In this document: positions 5,278 to 16,292 of the stretch, piece after piece
Layout: every line of letters starts with the position of its first letter
Numbering within the stretch: position 1 is the first letter of the stretch
Assembly: GCA_030841185.1 (NCBI GenBank)
Contig: JAVEDB010000004.1
Coordinates: 1-32,590 of the forward strand
Direction of reading: 5' to 3'
From: Actinomycetota bacterium
Lineage (GTDB): Bacteria; Actinomycetota; Actinomycetes; JACCUZ01
Length of the DNA: 32,590 bases
Made by a program: the position numbers and the translations under genes
The notes under the pieces: model-generated
The model's input: the letters and a program-made list of their open reading frames with translations, nothing else
Told to the model about the DNA's origin: nothing
Database searches by the model: none

Positions 5278-6253
5278 CGAAACCCTCTCCGGTCAGCGCG
5301 ACGAACATGTCCTCGAGGCCGGGCGACTCGACGATGAGCTGGCGGACGTCGATGTCCCTCGCGACGAGCTCGGCCGTGACGCGTTCGCTGGCCACGGCGC
5401 CGAGCGGCGCGATGACCGAACCGGCTTGCACCTCGGGCCGACCGGTCCCCAGACGGACGAGCACCTCCGCGGCTGCCTCGGGACGGGACGTCTCGACCCG
5501 CACCCGGACGCCGGCAGCAGCCCGCAGCTCGGGCAGCGAGCCCTGGAAGACGAGGCTGCCCCGGCTCATCACCCCGACGTCGGTGCAGATCTGGTCGACC
5601 TCGCTCAACAGGTGCGAGGAGACGAACACCGTCGAGCCCTGCTCGCACGCCTCGCGCAGGAGGTGGCGCACCTCCCGCGTCCCCTGGGGGTCCAGCCCGT
5701 TGGTCGGCTCGTCCAGGATGAGCAGCTCCCGGGGCCGCATCAGGGCCGCGGCGAGGCCCAGCCGCTGGCGCATCCCCAGGGAGTACTTGCGGTAGCGCTT
5801 GGTGGCCGCGGCCGTGAGCCCGACCGCCTCGAGGGCACGCTCGACCCGGGCCCGCGCCTGCTTTCCTGCGACGGTGCGGTCCGCGGCGTCCAGACGCAGC
5901 AGGTTGTCCCGGCCGTTGAGGTACGGGTGGAACGCGGGACCCTCGACAAGCGCTCCGACACGGGGCAGCACCCCGGCACCCTCGCGCGGCATCGATTGAC
6001 CGAGCAGCTCGTGCGTGCCCGAGGTCGCGGCGACGAGGCCGAGGAGGATCCGAATGGTCGTCGTCTTCCCTGAACCGTTCGGTCCGAGAAAACCGTAGAT
6101 CGCGCCCTGTGGCACGAGGAGGTCGAGACCATTCACCGCGACCTGACCGCCGGGGAACCGCTTGGTCAGACCGGCCGTGCTGATCGCGGGCAGGGCGGTC
6201 TCATCGGTGGATCGACTGGGTGCCTCCTCGACCACTCCCACCTGTGCCGTCAC
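5264..6253 (-). CDS. ABC transporter ATPase (ABC-2 exporter, drug/lantibiotic type)
   Basis: This encodes 329 residues from GTG 6253, which overlaps the stop of the LolA-like gene as GTGA. An N-terminal tail of about 22 residues precedes the nucleotide-binding domain. Walker A GPNGSGKT is at 57-64, the signature is SLGMRQR, Walker B is LLILDEPTNGLDP, and the H-loop is in SSHLLSEVDQICTD. All catalytic elements are intact. After about residue 235 comes a C-terminal domain (VRVRVETSRPEAAAEVLVRLG, ending ESPGLEDMFVALTGEG) as in DrrA/BcrA-like ATPases. It powers the permease encoded just downstream (14-base overlap). The divergent regulator-kinase pair is the likely controller of this operon. Confidence 0.94.
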   Translation of the reverse strand: MTAQVGVVEEAPSRSTDETALPAISTAGLTKRFPGGQVAVNGLDLLVPQGAIYGFLGPNGSGKTTTIRILLGLVAATSGTHELLGQSMPREGAGVLPRVGALVEGPAFHPYLNGRDNLLRLDAADRTVAGKQARARVERALEAVGLTAAATKRYRKYSLGMRQRLGLAAALMRPRELLILDEPTNGLDPQGTREVRHLLREACEQGSTVFVSSHLLSEVDQICTDVGVMSRGSLVFQGSLPELRAAAGVRVRVETSRPEAAAEVLVRLGTGRPEVQAGSVIAPLGAVASERVTAELVARDIDVRQLIVESPGLEDMFVALTGEGFDVDE

Positions 6254-7466: not shown

Positions 7467-8144
7467 GTGAAGCTTCTGGTCGTCGAGGACGAGGTGCGCC
7501 TGGCCCAGGCGCTGCGTCGGGGGCTGCAGGCCGAGGGGTTCACAGTCGATCTCGCTCATGACGGCGAGGACGGCCTGCACCGCGCACGCGAGGGCGACTA
7601 CGCCGCGATCGTGCTCGACGTCATGCTGCCGCGCCTGTCGGGCTACCGCGTCTGTCAGCAGCTGCGGCACGAAGGCAACTGGGTGCCCGTCCTGATGCTG
7701 TCGGCCAAGGACGGCGAGTACGACGAGGCGGACGGGCTCGACATCGGCGCCGACGACTACCTGACCAAGCCGTTCTCCTACGTCGTCCTCGTCGCCCATC
7801 TGCGTGCCCTGCTGCGGCGCGGCGCGCCAGACCGCCCAGCGGTCCTCACCGCCGGGGACCTGACGCTCGATCCGGCGAGCCACACGGTCCACCGGGGGAA
7901 GCAGGAGATCGCCCTGACCCGGCGGGAGTTCGCTGTTCTCGAGGTCCTGATGCGCCACCGGGGCCAGGTGGTGCCCAAGTCGCAGATCCTCACCGATGTC
8001 TGGGACAGCCACTACTCCGGCGCGGAGAACGTCGTCGAGGTCTATGTCGGCTACCTGCGCCGCAAGGTCGACGAACCGTTCGGCCGGACCTCCCTCCAGA
8101 CGATCCGCGGAGCCGGCTACCGACTGGCAGCGGACGGTGGCTGA
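7467..8144 (+). CDS. OmpR/PhoB-family response regulator (first system)
   Basis: This encodes 225 residues from GTG 7467 (VKLLVVEDEVRLAQAL); AGGG at 7456-7459 is a suitable ribosome-binding site. The receiver domain covers residues 1-115, with acidic pocket Glu7/Asp8, phospho-acceptor Asp51 (LDVMLP), Ser79 and Lys101 (LTKPF). A winged-helix DNA-binding domain follows at about 125-222 (LTRREFAVLEVLMRH, then GAENVVEVYVGYLRRKV and IRGAGYRL). It should be phosphorylated by the kinase encoded next (8-base overlap) and act on promoters such as the divergent exporter operon. An inverted repeat lies 33 bases upstream of the start. Confidence 0.95.
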   Translation: MKLLVVEDEVRLAQALRRGLQAEGFTVDLAHDGEDGLHRAREGDYAAIVLDVMLPRLSGYRVCQQLRHEGNWVPVLMLSAKDGEYDEADGLDIGADDYLTKPFSYVVLVAHLRALLRRGAPDRPAVLTAGDLTLDPASHTVHRGKQEIALTRREFAVLEVLMRHRGQVVPKSQILTDVWDSHYSGAENVVEVYVGYLRRKVDEPFGRTSLQTIRGAGYRLAADGG

Positions 8145-9552
8145 GCCGGGCACCGACCCGGCCGGCCCGGGGCGACGCCGGGTCGGGGTCCAGGGCCGCC
8201 TGACCCTTGCCGCGACGGGGCTGGTGGCCGTGGTGCTCGTGATCGGGGCCCTCGGCCTGCTGCTGTCGCTCCGATACGCCCTGCTCAGCACGCTCGACGA
8301 CTCGGCCCGCCAACGCGCCCGTGACGTGGCCACCCTCGTCGACAACCGCACGCTCCCGCGCAGCGTGCCGGTCGCCGGAGGCACCGTCCTGGTCCAGGTG
8401 GTCGACAACCAAGGCCGGGTACGCGCCGCCTCCCCTGGTGGTGACGCACTCGTCCCGGTGCTCTCCGGTGGTGCGCTGGCCGACGCGCGGCGCGGAAAGA
8501 CGCAGATCGTGCCCGGCTCGCGCATCGGTGTCGAGGACACGCTTCGGGTGGTTGCCACCGTTGCCGGCCCCACGTCGGACCGCCAGACGGTCCTGGTCGC
8601 GGTGTCGAGTACCGAGGCGGCGCACAGCCTGCGGATCGTGACGTGGGTGTTCGGCATCGGCGTACCGCTGCTGGTCGCCGCCTTCTCCGCAGCGTGCTGG
8701 TTCCTGGTCGGGGCGGCGCTCCGGCCGGTCGCGTCGCTGCGGCGTGGCGCCAGCGAGATCACCGAGGCCGGTGCGACGACCCGGCTAACGGTGCCGCCAA
8801 CGCGAGACGAGGTCGCCCGGTTGGCGGGGACCCTCAACGACATGCTGGACCGGCTGGCCGCCGGCAGCGCCCGCAACCGGGCGTTCGTCGCGGACGCGGC
8901 GCACGAGCTGCGCAGCCCGCTGGCATCGATGCGCACCCAGCTCGAGGTCGGGCGGGCCCATCCTCGCCATGCGGAGTGGGACGAGATCTCGGCCGGTGTG
9001 CTCGAGGACCTGCAGCGGCTCACCCGGCTGGTCGACGACCTGCTGGTGCTGGCCCGGCTCGACGACGGCCACGGGGCTGCGAAAAACGCCCGGACGACAG
9101 ACCTGAGGGCGGTCGCCACCGCCGGCGTGACGCGGATGGCGTTGCGCAACAAGGTGCACCTCGTCCCGCCCGACGACCCAGTGCTCGCCCTGGTCGATCC
9201 CGATGCGGCCGCGCGGGTGATCGACAACCTGCTCAGCAACGCCGACCGCCATGCGACCTCGCTGATCACGGTCGAGGTGCGCGACGGTCACGGCTGGGCG
9301 GTTCTCTCGGTCAGCGATGACGGACCGGGGATCCCGGTCGGTGAGCGGGACCGGGTCTTCCAGCGATTCACCCGGCTGGACGAGTCACGCTCGCAGTACT
9401 CCGGCGGCAGCGGGTTGGGTCTCGCCATCGTGCATCAGGTCATGCGGTCCGCCGGCGGCTCGATCGTGCTCGAGGATGCCGGTCCGGGCCTGCGGGCCGT
9501 CGTCACGCTGCCCAAGGCCGACCCACCAGGGGACGACGCGTCGCAGAAGTGA
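8137..9552 (+). CDS. Sensor histidine kinase (first system)
   Basis: This encodes 471 residues from GTG 8137, which overlaps the regulator stop by 8 bases. Membrane segments lie at about 22-47 and 168-190, flanking an outer sensor domain of about 120 residues (DDSARQRARDVATLVDN through VAVSSTEAAHSLR). A HAMP-like linker follows (ALRPVASLRRGASEI). The dimerisation/phospho-acceptor helix is FVADAAHELRSPLASMR with His256. The ATP-binding domain has an N box (VIDNLLSNADRH), G1 (DDGPGIP) and G2 (SGGSGLGLAIV). All catalytic motifs are intact. The signal is unknown; pairing with an ABC exporter and a LolA-like protein suggests an envelope or toxic-compound cue. It ends 3 bases before the end of the opposing kinase gene. 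Confidence 0.94.
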   Translation: MAEPGTDPAGPGRRRVGVQGRLTLAATGLVAVVLVIGALGLLLSLRYALLSTLDDSARQRARDVATLVDNRTLPRSVPVAGGTVLVQVVDNQGRVRAASPGGDALVPVLSGGALADARRGKTQIVPGSRIGVEDTLRVVATVAGPTSDRQTVLVAVSSTEAAHSLRIVTWVFGIGVPLLVAAFSAACWFLVGAALRPVASLRRGASEITEAGATTRLTVPPTRDEVARLAGTLNDMLDRLAAGSARNRAFVADAAHELRSPLASMRTQLEVGRAHPRHAEWDEISAGVLEDLQRLTRLVDDLLVLARLDDGHGAAKNARTTDLRAVATAGVTRMALRNKVHLVPPDDPVLALVDPDAAARVIDNLLSNADRHATSLITVEVRDGHGWAVLSVSDDGPGIPVGERDRVFQRFTRLDESRSQYSGGSGLGLAIVHQVMRSAGGSIVLEDAGPGLRAVVTLPKADPPGDDASQK

Positions 9553-9555
9553 CGC

Positions 9556-10935
9556 TCAGCCGGCGCGCCGCGACCCGCAGGGCAACCGGACCCGAAAGGT
9601 GGTGGCATCCGCTGCGCTCTGGACGAGCGTGACGTCGCCACCGACGTCGCGGGCGGTCTCCCGGGCCAGCCAGAGCCCGAGGCCGCCAGCAACGCTCGCG
9701 TCCCGGCTGCTCACCCAGGCGTCGAAGACGTGCGGTTCGAGCGATGCCGGTATGCCGGCCCCGACGTTCGTCACGTCGACGATCACCTCGTCGGGATCTC
9801 GGCCGATGCCGACCTCAACTGTGACCCGGTTGCCGCGCACGCTGTGCCGCACCGCGTTCTCCACGAGAGGGTCGACGACGTCCACGATCTCGGCGGGGCC
9901 GGTCGCGGCGACCGCGAGCGCGTCGACCTCGAGACTGACGTGGACGCCGTTCACGGCGCCCTGTCGTCGCCAGCGTGGTTCGGCCGCACCGAGCGTCGCA
10001 CCGACGGACACGGAGCCTTCTCCCCGCGGCCGACTCCGCGCCAGCACCCGGTCAACGACGTGTGTCAGCTGGTCGGCATCGCCGAGGATGCGCCGGATGG
10101 CGGCAGTCCTCTCGTCCGGGTCGTTCTCGCTGAGAGCGAGCTCTGCCTCGGCGCGCAGGGTGGCGACCGGTGTACGCAGACGGTGGCCCGCGTCCGCCGC
10201 GAAGGTGAGCTCGCGCAGGTGGGCCTCGTGCAGTCGGCTCAGCATCCGGTTCAGCGCGGTGACGAGCCGCGCCAGCTCGGTGTCGCCTGTCGGTACGGGC
10301 AGCCCACCCGCGAGGGAGTTCGTCCGGGTGCCCTCGGCCTCCTCGGTGAGCCGGGTGACGCTGCGCAGCGCCCGGCCGGTCAGCACCCAGCAGAGCAGCG
10401 CGATGGTCGACACCACCGCGATGAGACCGATGACCAGCAGCCACAGCAGATCGGTCTGGGTGGCGGTGAAGCCCTCCACGTCGACGGCCACCACCAGCGC
10501 CCCGGTAGCCGCGGGCAAGTTGCCCTGAGCGGGCAGTGCCAGCGGCACTCCGAGCACCGCCAGGTCGGTGTCGGGCTGCTGGAAGGATCGGCTGACCCGC
10601 ACGCCGTCCGGACCTGCCGCCTGCACGTCGGCGCTCGGCAGCAGCGGCCCGAGACCGGTCAGCCCTGCTGTCTGTGCCCGGACCCTCCCGTCCGGACCGA
10701 GCACCTGCACGAGGTCGGTCTTGAGGCTGCCGCGGTGCGGCTTGAGCGTCCCGTCCGGGCGCACCTCGTCCTTCGCGAGGTCGAGACGGCTCCGTAGCGC
10801 GGTGCCGACGGCGCGATCCTCCAGCTGGTGGATGCGCCAGGTTGCGACGGTGCCGAAGACGACGGCGAAGACCGCCCCCGCGGACACGGCGCCGAGCAGG
10901 AGCCGCCCCCGCAGGGACGAGGGGAACCTCCTCAC
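9556..10935 (-). CDS. Sensor histidine kinase (second system)
   Basis: This encodes 459 residues from GTG 10935, which overlaps the regulator stop as GTGA; the frame stays open upstream only inside the regulator gene. Membrane segments are near residues 8-30 and 160-185, with an outer domain of about 125 residues between them. HAMP-like GRALRSVTRLTEEAEG follows, then the phospho-acceptor helix FAADAGHRLRTPVATLR with His251, the N box (VDPLVENAVRHSV) and G2 (VAGGLGLWLA). The G1 box reads NVGAGIP, with Asn390 where DxGxG normally has Asp. The conserved Asp contacts the adenine of ATP, so nucleotide binding may differ; some actinobacterial kinases deviate here. It is encoded at the end of the lipoprotein/ABC/regulator run. 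Confidence 0.92.
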   Translation of the reverse strand: MRRFPSSLRGRLLLGAVSAGAVFAVVFGTVATWRIHQLEDRAVGTALRSRLDLAKDEVRPDGTLKPHRGSLKTDLVQVLGPDGRVRAQTAGLTGLGPLLPSADVQAAGPDGVRVSRSFQQPDTDLAVLGVPLALPAQGNLPAATGALVVAVDVEGFTATQTDLLWLLVIGLIAVVSTIALLCWVLTGRALRSVTRLTEEAEGTRTNSLAGGLPVPTGDTELARLVTALNRMLSRLHEAHLRELTFAADAGHRLRTPVATLRAEAELALSENDPDERTAAIRRILGDADQLTHVVDRVLARSRPRGEGSVSVGATLGAAEPRWRRQGAVNGVHVSLEVDALAVAATGPAEIVDVVDPLVENAVRHSVRGNRVTVEVGIGRDPDEVIVDVTNVGAGIPASLEPHVFDAWVSSRDASVAGGLGLWLARETARDVGGDVTLVQSAADATTFRVRLPCGSRRAG

Positions 10936-11609
10936 GCCAGTGCCGTCAAGCGATAGCCGACACCGCGGACGGTCTCGATCAATGCCGGCGCACCGGCATC
11001 CGCCAGCCGGGTCCGCAGGTATCCGACATAGACGTCCACCACGTTGGAGGTGCCGTCGTACGCGAAGTCCCACACGTGATCGAGGATCTCCGAGCGGCGG
11101 AGCACGTCGCCGGGCCGGCGCATGAAGTAGTCGAGCAGCGCGAACTCGCGCGGGGAGAGCTCGACGGCGCTGTGCTGCCACGTCACGCCGTGCTCGGCCG
11201 GGTCCAGAACGAGGTCGCCGTTGCGCAGCACTGGTGGCCGTTCGGTCTCGCCGCGACGAAGCAAGGCTCGCAGGCGGGCGGCGAGCTCGCCGAAAGCGAA
11301 CGGCTTGCCGAGGTAATCGTCGGCGCCGCAGTCCAGGCCGTCGATGCGGTCCTGCAGATCGGTCCGCGCCGTCAGCATCAGGACCGGCACCCAGTGCCCT
11401 TCCTGTCGCAGCCAGCGGCACCAGGCCAGCCCGGACTCGCCTCCCGGAAGCCCGACGTCGCAGACGACGGCGTCGTAGGGGTTGCTCAGCACCGCGTGCC
11501 GCGCGTCGACGGCGTCCCCGGCGACGTCGACCGCCCAGCCCTCGCGGGCCAGGCCGCGGCGGAGGAGCTCAGCCATCCGGACGTCGTCCTCGACGACGAG
11601 CAGTTTCAC
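10932..11609 (-). CDS. OmpR/PhoB-family response regulator (second system)
   Basis: This encodes 225 residues from ATG 11609 (MKLLVVEDDVRMAELL). The receiver has the acidic pocket Glu7/Asp8/Asp9, phospho-acceptor Asp51 (CDVGLPGG), Thr80 and Lys102 (LGKPF). The C-terminal winged helix contains LSPREFALLDYFMRRPGD, SNVVDVYVGYLRTRL and VRGVGYRL. It closely resembles the first regulator in length and motifs, so the two are probably distant paralogues. It lies 42 bases downstream of the FtsX-type permease on the same strand and is coupled to its kinase by a GTGA overlap. Control of the upstream exporter genes is the likely job, as in many ABC/two-component modules. Confidence 0.95.
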   Translation of the reverse strand: MKLLVVEDDVRMAELLRRGLAREGWAVDVAGDAVDARHAVLSNPYDAVVCDVGLPGGESGLAWCRWLRQEGHWVPVLMLTARTDLQDRIDGLDCGADDYLGKPFAFGELAARLRALLRRGETERPPVLRNGDLVLDPAEHGVTWQHSAVELSPREFALLDYFMRRPGDVLRRSEILDHVWDFAYDGTSNVVDVYVGYLRTRLADAGAPALIETVRGVGYRLTALA

Positions 11610-11651: not shown

Positions 11652-14285
11652 TCACAGGTCGCGCAGCGCGCTCGGCCCCGCCCGTCCGACAAGGCGACCG
11701 ACGCCCGCCACGATCGACACGGTGACGCCGAGCACGAGAGCCAGCAGGGTGAGGATGTACGTCCACGGGACGTTGGCGCTGGCCGGCGGCGGATCGAAGA
11801 TCCCGGTCAGCACCTTGACCAACAAGTACGCGATCGACGCCCCGATCAGCCCACCACCGAGAACGCCGGACACCACCAGCCCCCACGCCTCCGCGGTGAG
11901 GAAGCGGCCGCGCTGGCGGGCCGTCGCCCCGAGCGCCCCGAGCAGCACCAGGGCCCGTCGCCGCTCGAGGATGCCGCCAGCCAAAGCCAGCGCCGAGCAG
12001 GCGAGGGCGAGCAGCACCCCGAAACCGAGCTCGAGCTTCGACAGGCCGGCGAGATCGGTCGCGGCGAGTCCCGACGCGCTGGCCACCTTCGCGCGCGCCG
12101 AGTTGATGTCCTCGACCTGTGCCCCGGTCCGCTGCAGCCGGGCTCGAAGGGCCGCAGCCGTTGTCGCCGGAGACTGGCTCGAGACGAGGAACGTCCCGAC
12201 GGCGTTCGATCCGGTCTTGGCGGCCAGATAGCCCGAGTTGGCGACGATGAAGCTGTCCTTGGGCGCGGTCGGCCATTCCTTGACCTGGCCCACCACGTGG
12301 AAGGGCACCGGCTGGTAGGTCTGGTCCGTGCCGCTCTGCAGCCGGATCCGGATCAGGTCGCCCGGGTGCAGCTGGTAGTCGTGCAGCGTTTCGCCCGAGA
12401 GCAGGACCCCGTCCGGGGTGGCCGCGAGCGTACGGAGTGTCCGGGACACGGTGCTGCCCGGGAAGAAGGCATCCTCCAGCTGACCGACGCGGGCGAACGA
12501 CGCGGCTCGAACTCCGTAGATGTCCTGCAGGTCGGGGCCGACGTAGGCGAACCGGTGCTGCAGGGGCTCGACGGCGTGAACTCCCGGCACAGGGGCGATG
12601 CTGCGCGCCCCCTCCGGGCCAACCGTCGATCCAGGCGGCTCGACGACGCTGACGTCGCTTCCGACCGTGAGCGCGACGTCGACCCGCGACTGTTGCTGGT
12701 ACGTCGAGGTGAAGACCGCCGTCGACGTGGCAAGGCCCAGGGCGATGGCGAGTCCGGCACCGCCACGGGCGATGACCTGTCGTCTCCGCCGTACCGCGGC
12801 GGCCTCGAGCTCCGGCGCAGCCCCCGGGCGCTGCCGTGCCCAGCGACCGGTCCGCCGCCCGAGCGCCATGGCCGACAGGCGCCACACGAGAAGCGCGAGG
12901 CCTGGCCAGGCCAGCGCCGGGCCGGCGAGCGCGGCGTAGTTCACCTGTGTGGTCGGCACGCCTTCGGGGGCGAGCACAACCTGGTAGCCGCTGCGTGCGG
13001 TCAAGGCGAAGGCCAACGCCGCTCCCGCGAGCAGGATCAGGTCGAGCCCGGCTCGCAGCGGCCAGGGCGTGCGCTGCCGCGGGCCGCGGGCTGCCTCGGC
13101 GGCGACTGTTGCCGCGCCTTGCCCCCGGATCAGCCCGAGCTGTGGCAGGGCCTGGGTCGCGGCGGCGAGCACGATGCCGCCGACAACGGCGATGACCGCC
13201 CAGCGGGTCGAGAGCGTGCTCCCACTGGGCAATGCCAGCCGAACCGCCAGCATCGCGAGCGGCAGGCCGAGGACAGCGCCGACGAGGGCGGTCAGCCCGG
13301 CCTCGCCCGCGATCAGGCCGAGGACGGACCGCGACGTCGCGCCACGCAGCCGGAGCAGGGCCATCTCCCGCCGACGCCGGTCCGAGCGCAGGGCGACGAC
13401 GAGGCCAGCGACCACCGCGGCGAGCGCGAAGCCCGGGAAGCCGAGCAGGAGGAACAGCAGGTCGGCGTACCGCGCGTCCTCGCCGGCCCCGGTCAACGCG
13501 ACGCCGAGGTTGTTTCCCACGAGCGCACCGCCCACGACAGCCGCCTGCACGTGGTTCGCCCGGCCGTCGATGACGGTTGCGGCTGTCTGCGGATCTGCCG
13601 GGAGATGGTCGTGCCGGAAGCCGACATGGATCTGGTGGATCACCGTCGTCGTCCCGACCAGCGCAGCGAATCGGTCCGGTGGCACGATCAGGACGTTGTC
13701 GGGTGGCGCGGTGGCACCCGCGCCCGGGGCCAGTCCCACCACCTGGAAGAACGAGTCCTCGGCCGGCATGTCGACGACGCCCTGAACGGTCACCGGCCGG
13801 AGGTTGGGTCCCGCCTGCACCTTTACCGTGTCGCCCGGAGCCGCTGCCAGGTTGGCGGAGGTCTGCTGGAGGAGCAGGGTGCCGGTCGACGCACCGAGCA
13901 GCGGGCGAATGACGCCGGGGAAGGAGGTGGCGTAACCCGGTGGCAGCGCCACGACGTACGCCGATCCGGTACGCCGAGTGCCACCGGGCCCGGTCGACTC
14001 CAAGGCGGCAACGCGTGCGTAGGTGACCTGCTCACTCGCTCGCAAGCCACCAAGCGTGGACACCACCCGGGCGATGGCTGCGGGGTCGCTTTGCGGGGTG
14101 ACCTGGACCTGCCAGTCGACCGGGACCGAGGCCGAGGCTCGGACGGTCAGGCCGGCGCGGCTCTGGGTGACGAAGGCCCCGAGGGAGGCGACGAAACCGA
14201 CCGCGATCGCGACGCTGAGCGCAGCCGTGAGCAACTCCACCGGACGACATCGGACGAGTCCGCCGAGCCACCTGAACGTCCTCAT
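11652..14285 (-). CDS. FtsX/MacB-type ABC permease with duplicated core
   Basis: This encodes 877 residues from ATG 14285, which overlaps the ATPase stop as ATGA. The first membrane helix is at about 17-40 and is followed by a large outer domain. A first FtsX core comes at about 255-400 (GFPGFALAAVVAGLVVALRS, REMALLRLRGATSRSVLG). Further helices lie at about 420-500, a second outer domain follows, and a second FtsX core is near 735-877 (LELGFGVLLALACSALALAG, RRALVLLGALGATARQRGRF). Each core carries the RG/LGAT coupling helix typical of FtsX. One chain therefore carries both half-permeases, with about ten helices. It should work with the two ATPases encoded just upstream, moving a lipid, peptide or lipoprotein, or passing ATP-driven force to the outside. 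The substrate is unknown. Confidence 0.92.
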   Translation of the reverse strand: MRTFRWLGGLVRCRPVELLTAALSVAIAVGFVASLGAFVTQSRAGLTVRASASVPVDWQVQVTPQSDPAAIARVVSTLGGLRASEQVTYARVAALESTGPGGTRRTGSAYVVALPPGYATSFPGVIRPLLGASTGTLLLQQTSANLAAAPGDTVKVQAGPNLRPVTVQGVVDMPAEDSFFQVVGLAPGAGATAPPDNVLIVPPDRFAALVGTTTVIHQIHVGFRHDHLPADPQTAATVIDGRANHVQAAVVGGALVGNNLGVALTGAGEDARYADLLFLLLGFPGFALAAVVAGLVVALRSDRRRREMALLRLRGATSRSVLGLIAGEAGLTALVGAVLGLPLAMLAVRLALPSGSTLSTRWAVIAVVGGIVLAAATQALPQLGLIRGQGAATVAAEAARGPRQRTPWPLRAGLDLILLAGAALAFALTARSGYQVVLAPEGVPTTQVNYAALAGPALAWPGLALLVWRLSAMALGRRTGRWARQRPGAAPELEAAAVRRRRQVIARGGAGLAIALGLATSTAVFTSTYQQQSRVDVALTVGSDVSVVEPPGSTVGPEGARSIAPVPGVHAVEPLQHRFAYVGPDLQDIYGVRAASFARVGQLEDAFFPGSTVSRTLRTLAATPDGVLLSGETLHDYQLHPGDLIRIRLQSGTDQTYQPVPFHVVGQVKEWPTAPKDSFIVANSGYLAAKTGSNAVGTFLVSSQSPATTAAALRARLQRTGAQVEDINSARAKVASASGLAATDLAGLSKLELGFGVLLALACSALALAGGILERRRALVLLGALGATARQRGRFLTAEAWGLVVSGVLGGGLIGASIAYLLVKVLTGIFDPPPASANVPWTYILTLLALVLGVTVSIVAGVGRLVGRAGPSALRDL

Positions 14286-14956
14286 CGGATGGCCGTCCCA
14301 GCCAGGTGGCCCTCCGCGACCGACAGCTGGTCGGTCAGAAGGGCGGCCAGCTCCGGGTCGTGCGTCGCAAGCACGAGAGCGCCGCCCGCGGCCACGACTC
14401 CCGCCCGAAGCGCCTCGATGGCCTCCTGGGCGTGGGCCCGGTCGAGGGCACCGGTCGGCTCGTCGGCGAGCAGCAGCTTGTGTCGGCCCGCGAGTGCTCG
14501 CGCGATCGCCACCCGTTGCTGCTGACCGCCGGAGAGCTGGGTCGGGAGCGCATCCGCCATCTCGAGCACCCCTGCTGCTGTCAGCGCAGTCACCGCGTCC
14601 ACATGAGCTTCCGGTCGGTTCACCCCGCGCAGGCGCAGGGGCAGGGTGACGTTCTCGATGGCCGTCAGCTCGGGCATGAGGGACGGCGCTTGGAACACCA
14701 TCCCGATCTCGCTGCGGCGGATGCCGGGGCGAGAGCCGAGTCCTGGCCATGAGACCTGGCCGGTCGTCGGCCGGAGCAAGCCGGACAGGGCGAGCAGGAT
14801 CGTCGTCTTGCCGCTCCCCGACCGGCCGGTCAGGGCGATCTCGTCCCCGGCGTACACCGCCAGGTTCACGTCGCTGACGATCTCGGCTCGCCCGAAGCGC
14901 ATGCCGAGGGACTCGGCGCGGACGAACGGCTCGGCCGTCTGGTCGTGGCCCGTCAT
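14282..14956 (-). CDS. ABC ATPase of FtsX/MacB type (canonical partner)
   Basis: This encodes 224 residues from ATG 14956, with an ATGA overlap to the ATPase gene before it and another to the permease gene after it. Walker A GRSGSGKT is at 44-51, the Q-loop is in MVFQAPSLMPELTAIENV, the signature LSGGQQQR is complete, Walker B is LLLADEPTGALD with a normal D-loop, and the H-loop is in LATHDPEL. This is the LolD/MacB subfamily pattern. It should pair with the neighbouring, less canonical ATPase under the single duplicated permease. Confidence 0.94.
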   Translation of the reverse strand: MTGHDQTAEPFVRAESLGMRFGRAEIVSDVNLAVYAGDEIALTGRSGSGKTTILLALSGLLRPTTGQVSWPGLGSRPGIRRSEIGMVFQAPSLMPELTAIENVTLPLRLRGVNRPEAHVDAVTALTAAGVLEMADALPTQLSGGQQQRVAIARALAGRHKLLLADEPTGALDRAHAQEAIEALRAGVVAAGGALVLATHDPELAALLTDQLSVAEGHLAGTAIR

Positions 14957-15618
14957 TGAACCCTTCCGTCCAGCAGATGTACGACGCGGTCAGCGGCTCG
15001 CGCCACCGCCGGGGAATGGGTGACGAGAACCGTCGCGCCCTCGGGCGGCCGCATCCGCCGGAGCAGATCGAGCAGTCCGGTCTCCTCGACGCGGCTGACC
15101 TCGGCGGTTGGCTCGTCGGCCAGCAACAGACTGGGGTTGCCGACCAGCGCGACCGCGAGATTCGCGCGGGCCGTCTCGCCGCCGGACAGGGTGGAGGGAC
15201 GAGCCGACGATCGCTGCCGGAGACCAACCTGGTCGAGCAGTCCCACCAGGTCAGCGGCGGCGGGTCGGGTCGGCCGGAACGAGCCGGCCAACCGCAGGTT
15301 GCCCAGCACATCGAGGTGCTCGACCAGCCCGGACGTCTGGGTCAGTACGCCGATCAGGCGTCCCCGCAGCCTGGCCTGGCTGTTGGCCGGCTGGTGGCTC
15401 ACCGCGTGTCCAGCCAGGGTGACGCTGCCTCCGTCCGGATCTTCGAGACCGGCGAGCAGGTTCATCAGGGTGGACTTGCCGGAGCCCGAGGGACCGACGA
15501 CGGCGACGAGCTCACCGGGTTGCACCGACAGGTTCACGTCGCGCAGCGCAGCGACCTCTTCGCCGCCGCGGCGATAGAAGCGATGCAGGCCGCGGGCCTC
15601 GAGCAGAGCGGCGGTCAT
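14953..15618 (-). CDS. ABC ATPase of FtsX/MacB type with altered D-loop
   Basis: This encodes 221 residues from ATG 15618, with ATGA overlaps on both sides. Walker A GPSGSGKST is at 42-50, the Q-loop Gln is near 94 (GVLTQTSGLVEHLDVLGNL), the signature is LSGGETARANLAVAL, Walker B LLLADE is at 164-169 and the H-loop is in LVTHSPAVA. The D-loop, normally GxLD after DEPT as in the next gene, reads AEVS here (172-175), so the Asp that helps couple the two sites is missing. The ATPase may be active but asymmetric with its partner. Two different ATPases plus a permease with two fused halves fit one heterodimeric exporter. Confidence 0.93.
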   Translation of the reverse strand: MTAALLEARGLHRFYRRGGEEVAALRDVNLSVQPGELVAVVGPSGSGKSTLMNLLAGLEDPDGGSVTLAGHAVSHQPANSQARLRGRLIGVLTQTSGLVEHLDVLGNLRLAGSFRPTRPAAADLVGLLDQVGLRQRSSARPSTLSGGETARANLAVALVGNPSLLLADEPTAEVSRVEETGLLDLLRRMRPPEGATVLVTHSPAVARAADRVVHLLDGRVQ

Positions 15619-16292
15619 CGGATCCGCAGACTCTTCGACATCGTGCGGTAGGCGTCCACGTTGTCCGCGCCCACGGGGCCGAACAGGTCCATCCGGACCA
15701 GGCGGCCGCTGGCGTACACGAGGTACTCCTCGACCTCGTCGCGGTAGACCTTCGCGGTCACCGGATCGGGATCGGAGTTACGCCGGAAGACGATGCGTAC
15801 GCCGGTGCCTCCCGGCATCGTGACCGCTGTGACGCTGCGCAGCGCGAAGGCGGGGACGGACTGCCGCAGCTTCGGTACCTGGTTGGTCTTCGCCGACTGA
15901 ACGGTGGGCGCTGCGGTGGCTGCGGCGCTGTCGACGTCGACGCCGTTGAGCTTGTCGGTGAAGCGCACGTGCGTCCCGGACCCGGTCTGCGCCCAGCCCT
16001 CCGGGTGGGTGAAGGTGTAGTGACCGGCGGGGTTGGTGTAGCTGACGAACGCGAGGTTGTCGGGGATGTCACCCGGAGGGTTGCTCTCCACCGGGACCGC
16101 CTTGACCGTCGCCCTCGTCGACGAGGGGGCCGTCGACGAGGACGCGGTCGCCGACGAGCTCGCACTCGTCGAGACTGTGGAGCCGGTCGCTTTGGTGCCT
16201 CCGCTGCTACATCCCGCAAGAGCCGGCAGCAACACGCCAACGACAGCGGCGGCGCCTACGGCACCCGTCAGTCCAGCCCGAGAAAGTCGCAT
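15615..16292 (-). CDS. Lipoprotein, LpqN/PsbP-like
   Basis: This encodes 225 residues from ATG 16292 (MRLSRAGLTG). The lipobox LAGC puts the lipidated Cys at residue 28. A low-complexity Ser/Thr/Ala linker covers about 30-72. The globular part (YTNPAGHYTFTHPEGW, HVRFTDK, VPAFALRSVTAVTMPGGTGVRIVFRR, YRDEVEEYLVYASGRLVRMDLFGP, DAYRTMSKSLRI) resembles the PsbP-like fold found in actinobacterial LpqN-type lipoproteins. It is the first gene of the run lipoprotein, ATPase, ATPase, permease, regulator, kinase, with an ATGA overlap to the first ATPase. It probably sits outside the membrane as an accessory or substrate-binding part of the exporter; that role is inferred from the operon. A 72-base gap upstream probably carries the promoter. 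Confidence 0.82.
   Translation of the reverse strand: MRLSRAGLTGAVGAAAVVGVLLPALAGCSSGGTKATGSTVSTSASSSATASSSTAPSSTRATVKAVPVESNPPGDIPDNLAFVSYTNPAGHYTFTHPEGWAQTGSGTHVRFTDKLNGVDVDSAAATAAPTVQSAKTNQVPKLRQSVPAFALRSVTAVTMPGGTGVRIVFRRNSDPDPVTAKVYRDEVEEYLVYASGRLVRMDLFGPVGADNVDAYRTMSKSLRIR
16117..16176. repeat. Low-complexity GTCGACGAG-rich stretch
   Basis: Short imperfect repeats based on GTCGACGAG occur here, including the 12-base palindrome CTCGTCGACGAG at 16117-16128. They encode, on the minus strand, the Ser/Thr-rich linker of the lipoprotein, and they are best explained as coding low complexity. Confidence 0.5.

Follow-up and report, generated by a model that had tools for sequence, protein, structure and literature searches.

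Two Unlike ATPases Accompany One Duplicated FtsX Permease in a Type VII ABC Module of Actinomycetota and Pseudomonadota

Introduction

Among the type VII ATP-binding cassette (ABC) systems, LolCDE consists of two permease chains with LolD present twice, and MacB is a homodimer of an ATPase-permease fusion; both use two copies of one ATPase. YbbAP of E. coli has two YbbA subunits on one permease, YbbP, with ten transmembrane (TM) helices and two periplasmic domains (PMC12646458). BceAB has a single ATPase gene (PMC8003753); the only extracellular domain of BceB lies between TM7 and TM8, and the BceS-type kinases are described as having none (PMC5985334, PMC8003753). Because YbbAP, BceAB, LolCDE, and MacB use one ATPase twice, asymmetry between ATP sites can be studied in them only after engineering. 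Here, we describe a locus in which two different ATPase genes, ATPase1 and ATPase2, accompany one duplicated FtsX permease gene. It lies in a 32,590-nucleotide stretch of DNA from an Actinomycetota bacterium (assembly GCA_030841185.1, contig JAVEDB010000004.1, positions 1 to 32,590), which is called the window below.

An original prediction, made from the letters of the window, had noticed the unlike ATPases at positions 11652-15618, which are exactly the ATPase1, ATPase2, and permease genes. It proposed a fixed heterodimer with unequal sites, perhaps an actinobacterial variant of the Bce-like sensing and detoxification modules. Searches of openly licensed PubMed Central (PMC) papers listed no account of the module; for YtrBCDEF they covered listings and the openings of abstracts. 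We read the locus as a type VII ABC module that has two dedicated, unlike ATPases.

Two Unlike ATPases Are the Rule in the Family

The permease belongs to a family that is distinct from other FtsX permeases, because the long family matches score at least 298 bits and the next FtsX permease scores only 50.6 bits; one genome (G028) has two short family pieces, of 134.7 and 100.3 bits. Matches were found in 9 of the 60 genomes of the nearest set and in 21 of the 393 genomes of the class, the window's own genome being included in both counts. A search of named genomes gave 353 relatives, and the best 80 of these were kept and read (the "named loci"). Besides many Actinomycetota, the family includes Pseudomonadota, with records of Pseudomonas, Mesorhizobium, and Rhodoferax and with a plasmid of Paraburkholderia, which does not support the actinobacterial variant of the original prediction. 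Both ATPases adjoin the permease in 75 of the 80 named loci, and in the remaining five (L018, L023, L033, L040, and L051) the contig begins too near the permease. Of the 75 named loci that have ATPase1, 74 carry a lipoprotein relative upstream of it; in the remaining locus, the contig begins inside ATPase1.

For comparison, other duplicated-FtsX permeases of the class were read in 20 stretches, hand-picked for matches in both FtsX halves; two of these controls come from one genome (L128 and L145) and one comes from the window's own genome (L141). Exactly one same-strand ATPase lies upstream in 18 of them, and a tandem ATPase pair lies upstream of the permease in none of the 20. The two others are L139, with no upstream ATPase and a cut ATPase on the opposite strand, and L143, which is cut by the contig end, its permease frame opening 153 nucleotides into the contig. 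An additional, unrelated convergent ATPase (64 bits) is present in L138. In 17 of the 18 single-ATPase controls, the sequence reaches at least 1 kb further upstream; in L137, just 320 nucleotides are visible upstream of the ATPase, which leaves room for a second ATPase there. In other words, the arrangement with two unlike ATPases is family-wide, the rule here and seen in none of the controls, and the predicted contrast with single-ATPase systems stands.

An unrooted tree of 82 ATPases (32 ATPase1, 32 ATPase2, and the 18 control ATPases) has three separate groups: ATPase1 (100/99), ATPase2 (100/99), and the controls (100/97). The stems of the two module groups are long, with 1.08 and 1.12 changes per column; being unrooted, the tree gives no answer as to which of the three groups are the closest kin. 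Given this separation and the length of the two stems, a recent duplication was rejected as the origin of both ATPases. These separate groups, together with the conserved adjacency of the genes, indicate that the pair is old and has stayed together, and this conserved, ancient pairing is the best available sign that the two ATPases may form a heterodimer.

A Serine in the D-Loop of ATPase1

Pfam ABC_tran matches both ATPases of the window. The translation of ATPase1 contains GPSGSGKS, LSGGE, LLLADEPTAEVSR, and THS, with the D-loop stretch DEPTAEVS, and that of ATPase2 contains GRSGSGKT, LSGGQ, LLLADEPTGALDR, and THD, with the D-loop stretch DEPTGALD; the D-loops are those of the original prediction. 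Walker A, the Walker B Glu (in DEPT), the signature, and the H-loop His are intact in both proteins, so neither ATP site is degenerate in the classical sense of a missing Glu. LolD is the top NCBIfam match for both, far under its cut-off. The reading of LSGGE as the mark of a dead site was dropped, because this signature is nearly universal in ATPase1 (of the 77 compared, 74 read LSGGE and the other 3 LAGGE). LSGGE is also common in LolD.

The D-loop residue could be read in 91 non-redundant ATPase1s, and it is Ser in 20 and Asp in 71. The main alignment holds 77 ATPase1s, 19 with Ser (15 AEVS, 3 AEIS, and 1 GEVS) and 58 with Asp. To these were added L064 and L078, both with Asp, which are misaligned in the motif alignment and were read directly from the locus readings instead, and then one locus with Ser (L112) and eleven with Asp (L114 and L116-L125); the further loci come from a class-level search and two plasmids. 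Duplicate contigs of counted loci were dropped (L013, L018, L023, L030, L031, L072, L113, and L115), ATPase1 is not readable in L003, L004, L009, L033, L040, and L051, and L028 and L029, near-copies from one metagenome-assembled genome, are both counted.

The permease tree, in which five rows have no D-loop reading, contains a branch of support 100 that separates the 17 Ser rows completely from the 56 Asp rows. The window's clade has Ser in 17 of the 17 rows with a readable ATPase1 (an 18th row is unreadable), and Ser also occurs near this clade, in L008, L010, and L112, whose permeases are 66, 67, and 55% identical. Given this distribution, the Ser cannot be put down to a sequencing error. 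The 19 Ser-type sequences were grouped by their own Ser; the independent grouping is that of the permease tree. The loss of the D-loop Asp is thus fixed in the window's clade and not in the wider family, where most ATPase1s have Asp and orthologues with two normal D-loops are found; for the wider family, these orthologues count against the original prediction by its own standard. The asymmetry is real, but it has two layers: the unlike ATPase pair is family-wide, and the D-loop change belongs to one clade.

The 11 Ser rows used in the ATPase tree form one group (100/100) inside the ATPase1 group, beside Pseudomonadota AEVD forms (92/93, below that tree's star threshold), and from this nested position Ser is most likely the derived state. 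The codons of 19 of the 20 Ser loci are AGY in 17 and TCN in 2, and 72 of the 221 columns are invariant among the 19 Ser-type ATPase1s; the use of two codon families, with so few invariant columns, points to selection for Ser instead of decay. As a base rate, 20 stretches with other ABC genes from the same genome gave 19 readable D-loops, 16 with Asp and 3 without, so other ABC families do have non-Asp D-loops. All 18 single control ATPases have Asp (17 GNLD and 1 GALD).

ATPase2 has the D-loop Asp in 76 of the 77 loci of the main alignment (19 Ser-type and 58 Asp-type). The sole exception is Mycolicibacterium moriokaense (L060), with ISGGE and the D-loop GQLN. LSRGM replaces LSGGQ as the ATPase2 signature in L024 and L035 of the Ser clade, so their second site is altered as well, and DELT replaces DEPT at Walker B in ATPase1 of L119 and in ATPase2 of L125. 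One of the changes that mark the Ser type is Arg45 in Walker A of ATPase2 (19/19 Ser-type and 3/58 Asp-type), at a position that adjoins the residue which the D-loop is expected to contact.

Gene Layout, Structure Models and Two-Component Genes

The lipoprotein, ATPase1, ATPase2, and permease genes form a compact series (Table 1), in which each successive pair overlaps by 4 nucleotides: ATGA between the lipoprotein and ATPase1 genes, 4 nucleotides between ATPase1 and ATPase2, and again 4 between the ATPase2 stop and the permease start (14285). The permease stop is followed after 42 nucleotides by the start of the response regulator gene, which overlaps the kinase gene by GTGA.

Table 1. Genes of the module and the adjoining two-component genes in the window.
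Feature	Coordinates	Strand	Remarks
Lipoprotein, PsbP-fold	15615..16292	minus	ATG at 16292, leading to lipobox LAGC; open frame from 16328
ATPase1, 221 residues	14953..15618 (15618-14953)	minus	LSGGE signature; D-loop AEVS (Ser replacing the usual Asp)
ATPase2, 224 residues	14282..14956 (14956-14282)	minus	LSGGQ signature; D-loop GALD; Walker A GRSGSGKT
Duplicated-FtsX permease, 877 residues	11652..14285 (14285-11652)	minus	Model: 10 TM helices, two extracytoplasmic domains
OmpR-type response regulator	10932..11609	minus	Directly downstream of permease
Sensor histidine kinase	9556..10935	minus	Two predicted TM segments flanking a 136-residue loop

As predicted, the permease carries two FtsX cores in one chain, seen as two Pfam FtsX stretches (E 4.8e-15); NCBIfam gave no match for the permease and none for the lipoprotein. 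The permease model (predicted local distance difference test score, pLDDT, 84.0) has extracytoplasmic domains at about 53-258 and 542-744 and shows the type VII layout, in which a large domain is inserted between the first and the second helix of a four-TM half. Its top fold match is YbbP (9ge7; Z 23.0 over 678 residues; root-mean-square deviation, rmsd, 8.4 Å), followed by BceB (7tch; Z 21.4 over 578 residues; rmsd 6.8). Both extracytoplasmic domains are found in YbbP and not in BceB, and the model also matches MacB, LolC, and LolE. The lipoprotein model is well defined from about residue 90 and has a PsbP-type fold (Z 14.7 over 138 residues against cyanobacterial PsbP), and weak Pfam PsbP matches (E up to 0.1) occur in 27 of 64 members. 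Because this fold is common to proteins of many functions (PsbP, Mog1, DcrB, LpqN, and Eag chaperones), it names no function for the lipoprotein.

Two-component genes were searched for with equal settings and equal flanks at module and control loci. With 1.8 kb upstream and 1 kb downstream, a regulator or kinase was found near 43 of 62 module loci (28 with both) and near 0 of 15 controls; with 2.5 kb upstream, the counts are 48 of 59 (32 with both) and 0 of 11. Among named loci with a 3 kb flank, a regulator and a kinase follow directly downstream, as in the window, in 7 of the 15 loci of the Ser type and in 5 of the 41 of the Asp type, so this position is not a family constant. The original prediction had coupled the transporter to a lipoprotein and a dedicated two-component system; the linkage is real, but the directly downstream pair is not general. 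In the Paraburkholderia plasmid module (L124), a PepSY-domain gene, a regulator, and a kinase lie upstream.

The kinase of the window has predicted TM segments at 8-26 and 163-181 (hydropathy), with the 136-residue outer loop between them. Histidine kinases usually carry a DxGxG motif. At this position, the kinase (10935-9556) has NVGAG, with HRLRTP at the presumed phospho-acceptor His, and its kinase activity may be weak. A second sensor histidine kinase of 518 residues is encoded on the plus strand (7996-9552), its convergent end 3 nucleotides from that of the module kinase. At 5618-6151 on the minus strand, the window has another ABC ATPase match, with 33% identity to ATPase1.

Interpretation

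We hold with moderate confidence that the locus encodes a type VII ABC machine for mechanotransmission, built on an obligate 1:1 ATPase heterodimer with a tuned Ser site, a proposal drawn from sequence and fold comparison. The module has four genes, for the PsbP-fold lipoprotein, the two unlike ATPases, and the duplicated-FtsX permease, which by itself supplies both transmembrane halves. ATPase1 and ATPase2 would most likely form their heterodimer beneath this single permease, and two coupling helices would carry its ATP-driven closing and opening to both extracytoplasmic domains, in the manner of YbbAP, MacB, and LolCDE. The mechanical work outside the membrane, done together with the lipoprotein, may act on a lipid-like or envelope-active compound, and expression is probably controlled by the two-component genes nearby. 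In the window's clade, the ATPase1 D-loop with its conserved Ser should face Walker A of ATPase2, and the Ser would tune one of the two composite ATP sites, not kill it.

A distinctly possible alternative is that the heterodimer is real and the Ser is neutral: it would still cap its helix and contact the opposite Walker A backbone, and both sites would hydrolyse alike. Ser might stand in for Asp as a helix cap, which makes neutrality a strong rival. All catalytic motifs are kept in both window ATPases, and 3 of the 19 other ABC D-loops of the same genome lack Asp, as neutrality would allow. According to one published account, D-loops position the opposite Walker A, the D-loop Asp caps a helix, and Asp-to-Ala had no effect in the TAP2 D-loop and in ABCG5/8 (PMC4242082). 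Another account reports that ABCG5/G8 is unaffected by Asp-to-Ala and that, in TM287/288, this change is tolerated in the degenerate site and not in the canonical site (PMC7756269). By analogy with these transporters, we infer that the site holding Walker A of ATPase2 may tolerate an altered D-loop. Neutrality fits less well with a residue that is held in all 17 readable rows of the clade, although only 72 of the 221 columns are invariant among Ser-type ATPase1s, and that is written by two codon families.

The proposal of a heterodimer with a tuned Ser site has to be weighed against several observations, the Asp-to-Ala results in TAP2 and ABCG5/8 among them. The ATPase2 signature is also altered in part of the Ser clade (LSGGM in 6/19 and LSRGM in 2/19), so the deviation extends beyond one site. 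Four Asp types (L075, L080, L088, and L124) also have the Arg in Walker A of ATPase2; since the marker changes share one tree branch and the Asp-type L124 has the Arg, they show no coupling to the Ser. Of the ten TM helices in the permease model, plain hydropathy recovers only eight, and the YbbP match has 14% identity at its rmsd of 8.4 Å. For the tree's five loci from Pseudomonadota, a lipobox pattern search gave no convincing lipobox, so the partner protein there may be soluble instead of a lipoprotein. Finally, gene content alone is compatible with two ATPases that form no obligate heterodimer, but homodimerise and swap on the permease to give alternative transporters under different conditions. 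Such an exchange is improbable, given that the module has one permease only, holding both halves, that the two ATPase groups are ancient and still paired, that their genes in the window overlap by 4 nucleotides, and that single-ATPase systems with a duplicated permease exist in the same class.

More improbable still is the Bce-like flux-sensing and detoxification module of the original prediction, in which the permease would signal to the kinase in the membrane. In its favour are the two-component genes that are often found beside the module and BceB as the second fold match; however, the nearest fold is YbbP with its two domains, and a regulator and kinase directly downstream are not general (5/41 Asp-type and 7/15 Ser-type loci). 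Membership was rejected on the two modelled extracytoplasmic domains, the predicted outer loop of the kinase, and the two ATPase genes.

If the tuned heterodimer is accepted, its sites might also be split in function: the site of ATPase2 Walker A with the ATPase1 signature and Ser D-loop would be slow or gating, the other would drive the stroke, and the complex would be a nucleotide-gated switch or sensor reporting the envelope state via the lipoprotein, not a plain pump. This extension is doubtful on present evidence; if true, it would make the module a type VII machine with evolutionarily separated ATP sites. As a natural family with Ser in one clade and Asp in the rest, the module offers a ready-made test of the role of the D-loop Asp, and it is an unnamed, widespread envelope module, often near two-component genes.

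Comparison with Known Systems

The closest likeness is to E. coli YbbAP-TesA (PMC12646458; PDB 9ge6/9ge7), which shares one duplicated 10-TM permease with two periplasmic domains, as judged from our model. YbbAP has one ATPase in two copies and a TesA esterase partner, whereas the module has two ATPase genes, a PsbP-fold lipoprotein, and often two-component genes; this PsbP-fold protein is the conserved neighbour, and no search aimed at a TesA-type esterase was made. The single-ATPase duplicated-FtsX systems of the class (for example, G000:C232, L141) also have an ATPase preceding a duplicated permease, but they have one ATPase each, from a separate ATPase group, and two-component genes near 0 of the 15 loci with enough flank.

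BceAB-RS resembles the module in its 10-TM duplicated permease and adjoining two-component genes. It differs in having one extracellular domain in the permease instead of the two in our model, a kinase without an extracellular domain instead of one with a 136-residue predicted outer loop, and one ATPase gene instead of two. LolCDE and MacB share the type VII fold and similar extracytoplasmic domains, whereas the module has one fused permease and two different ATPase genes. The asymmetric heterodimeric exporters TAP and TM287/288 likewise have two unlike ATPases, which in the module are a conserved gene pair and probably one complex. They have another permease fold, and their weak site lacks catalytic residues, unlike the module, in which these residues are present in both ATPases. 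It is in TAP that the D-loop is reported to set coupling and direction (PMC4242082, PMC7756269).

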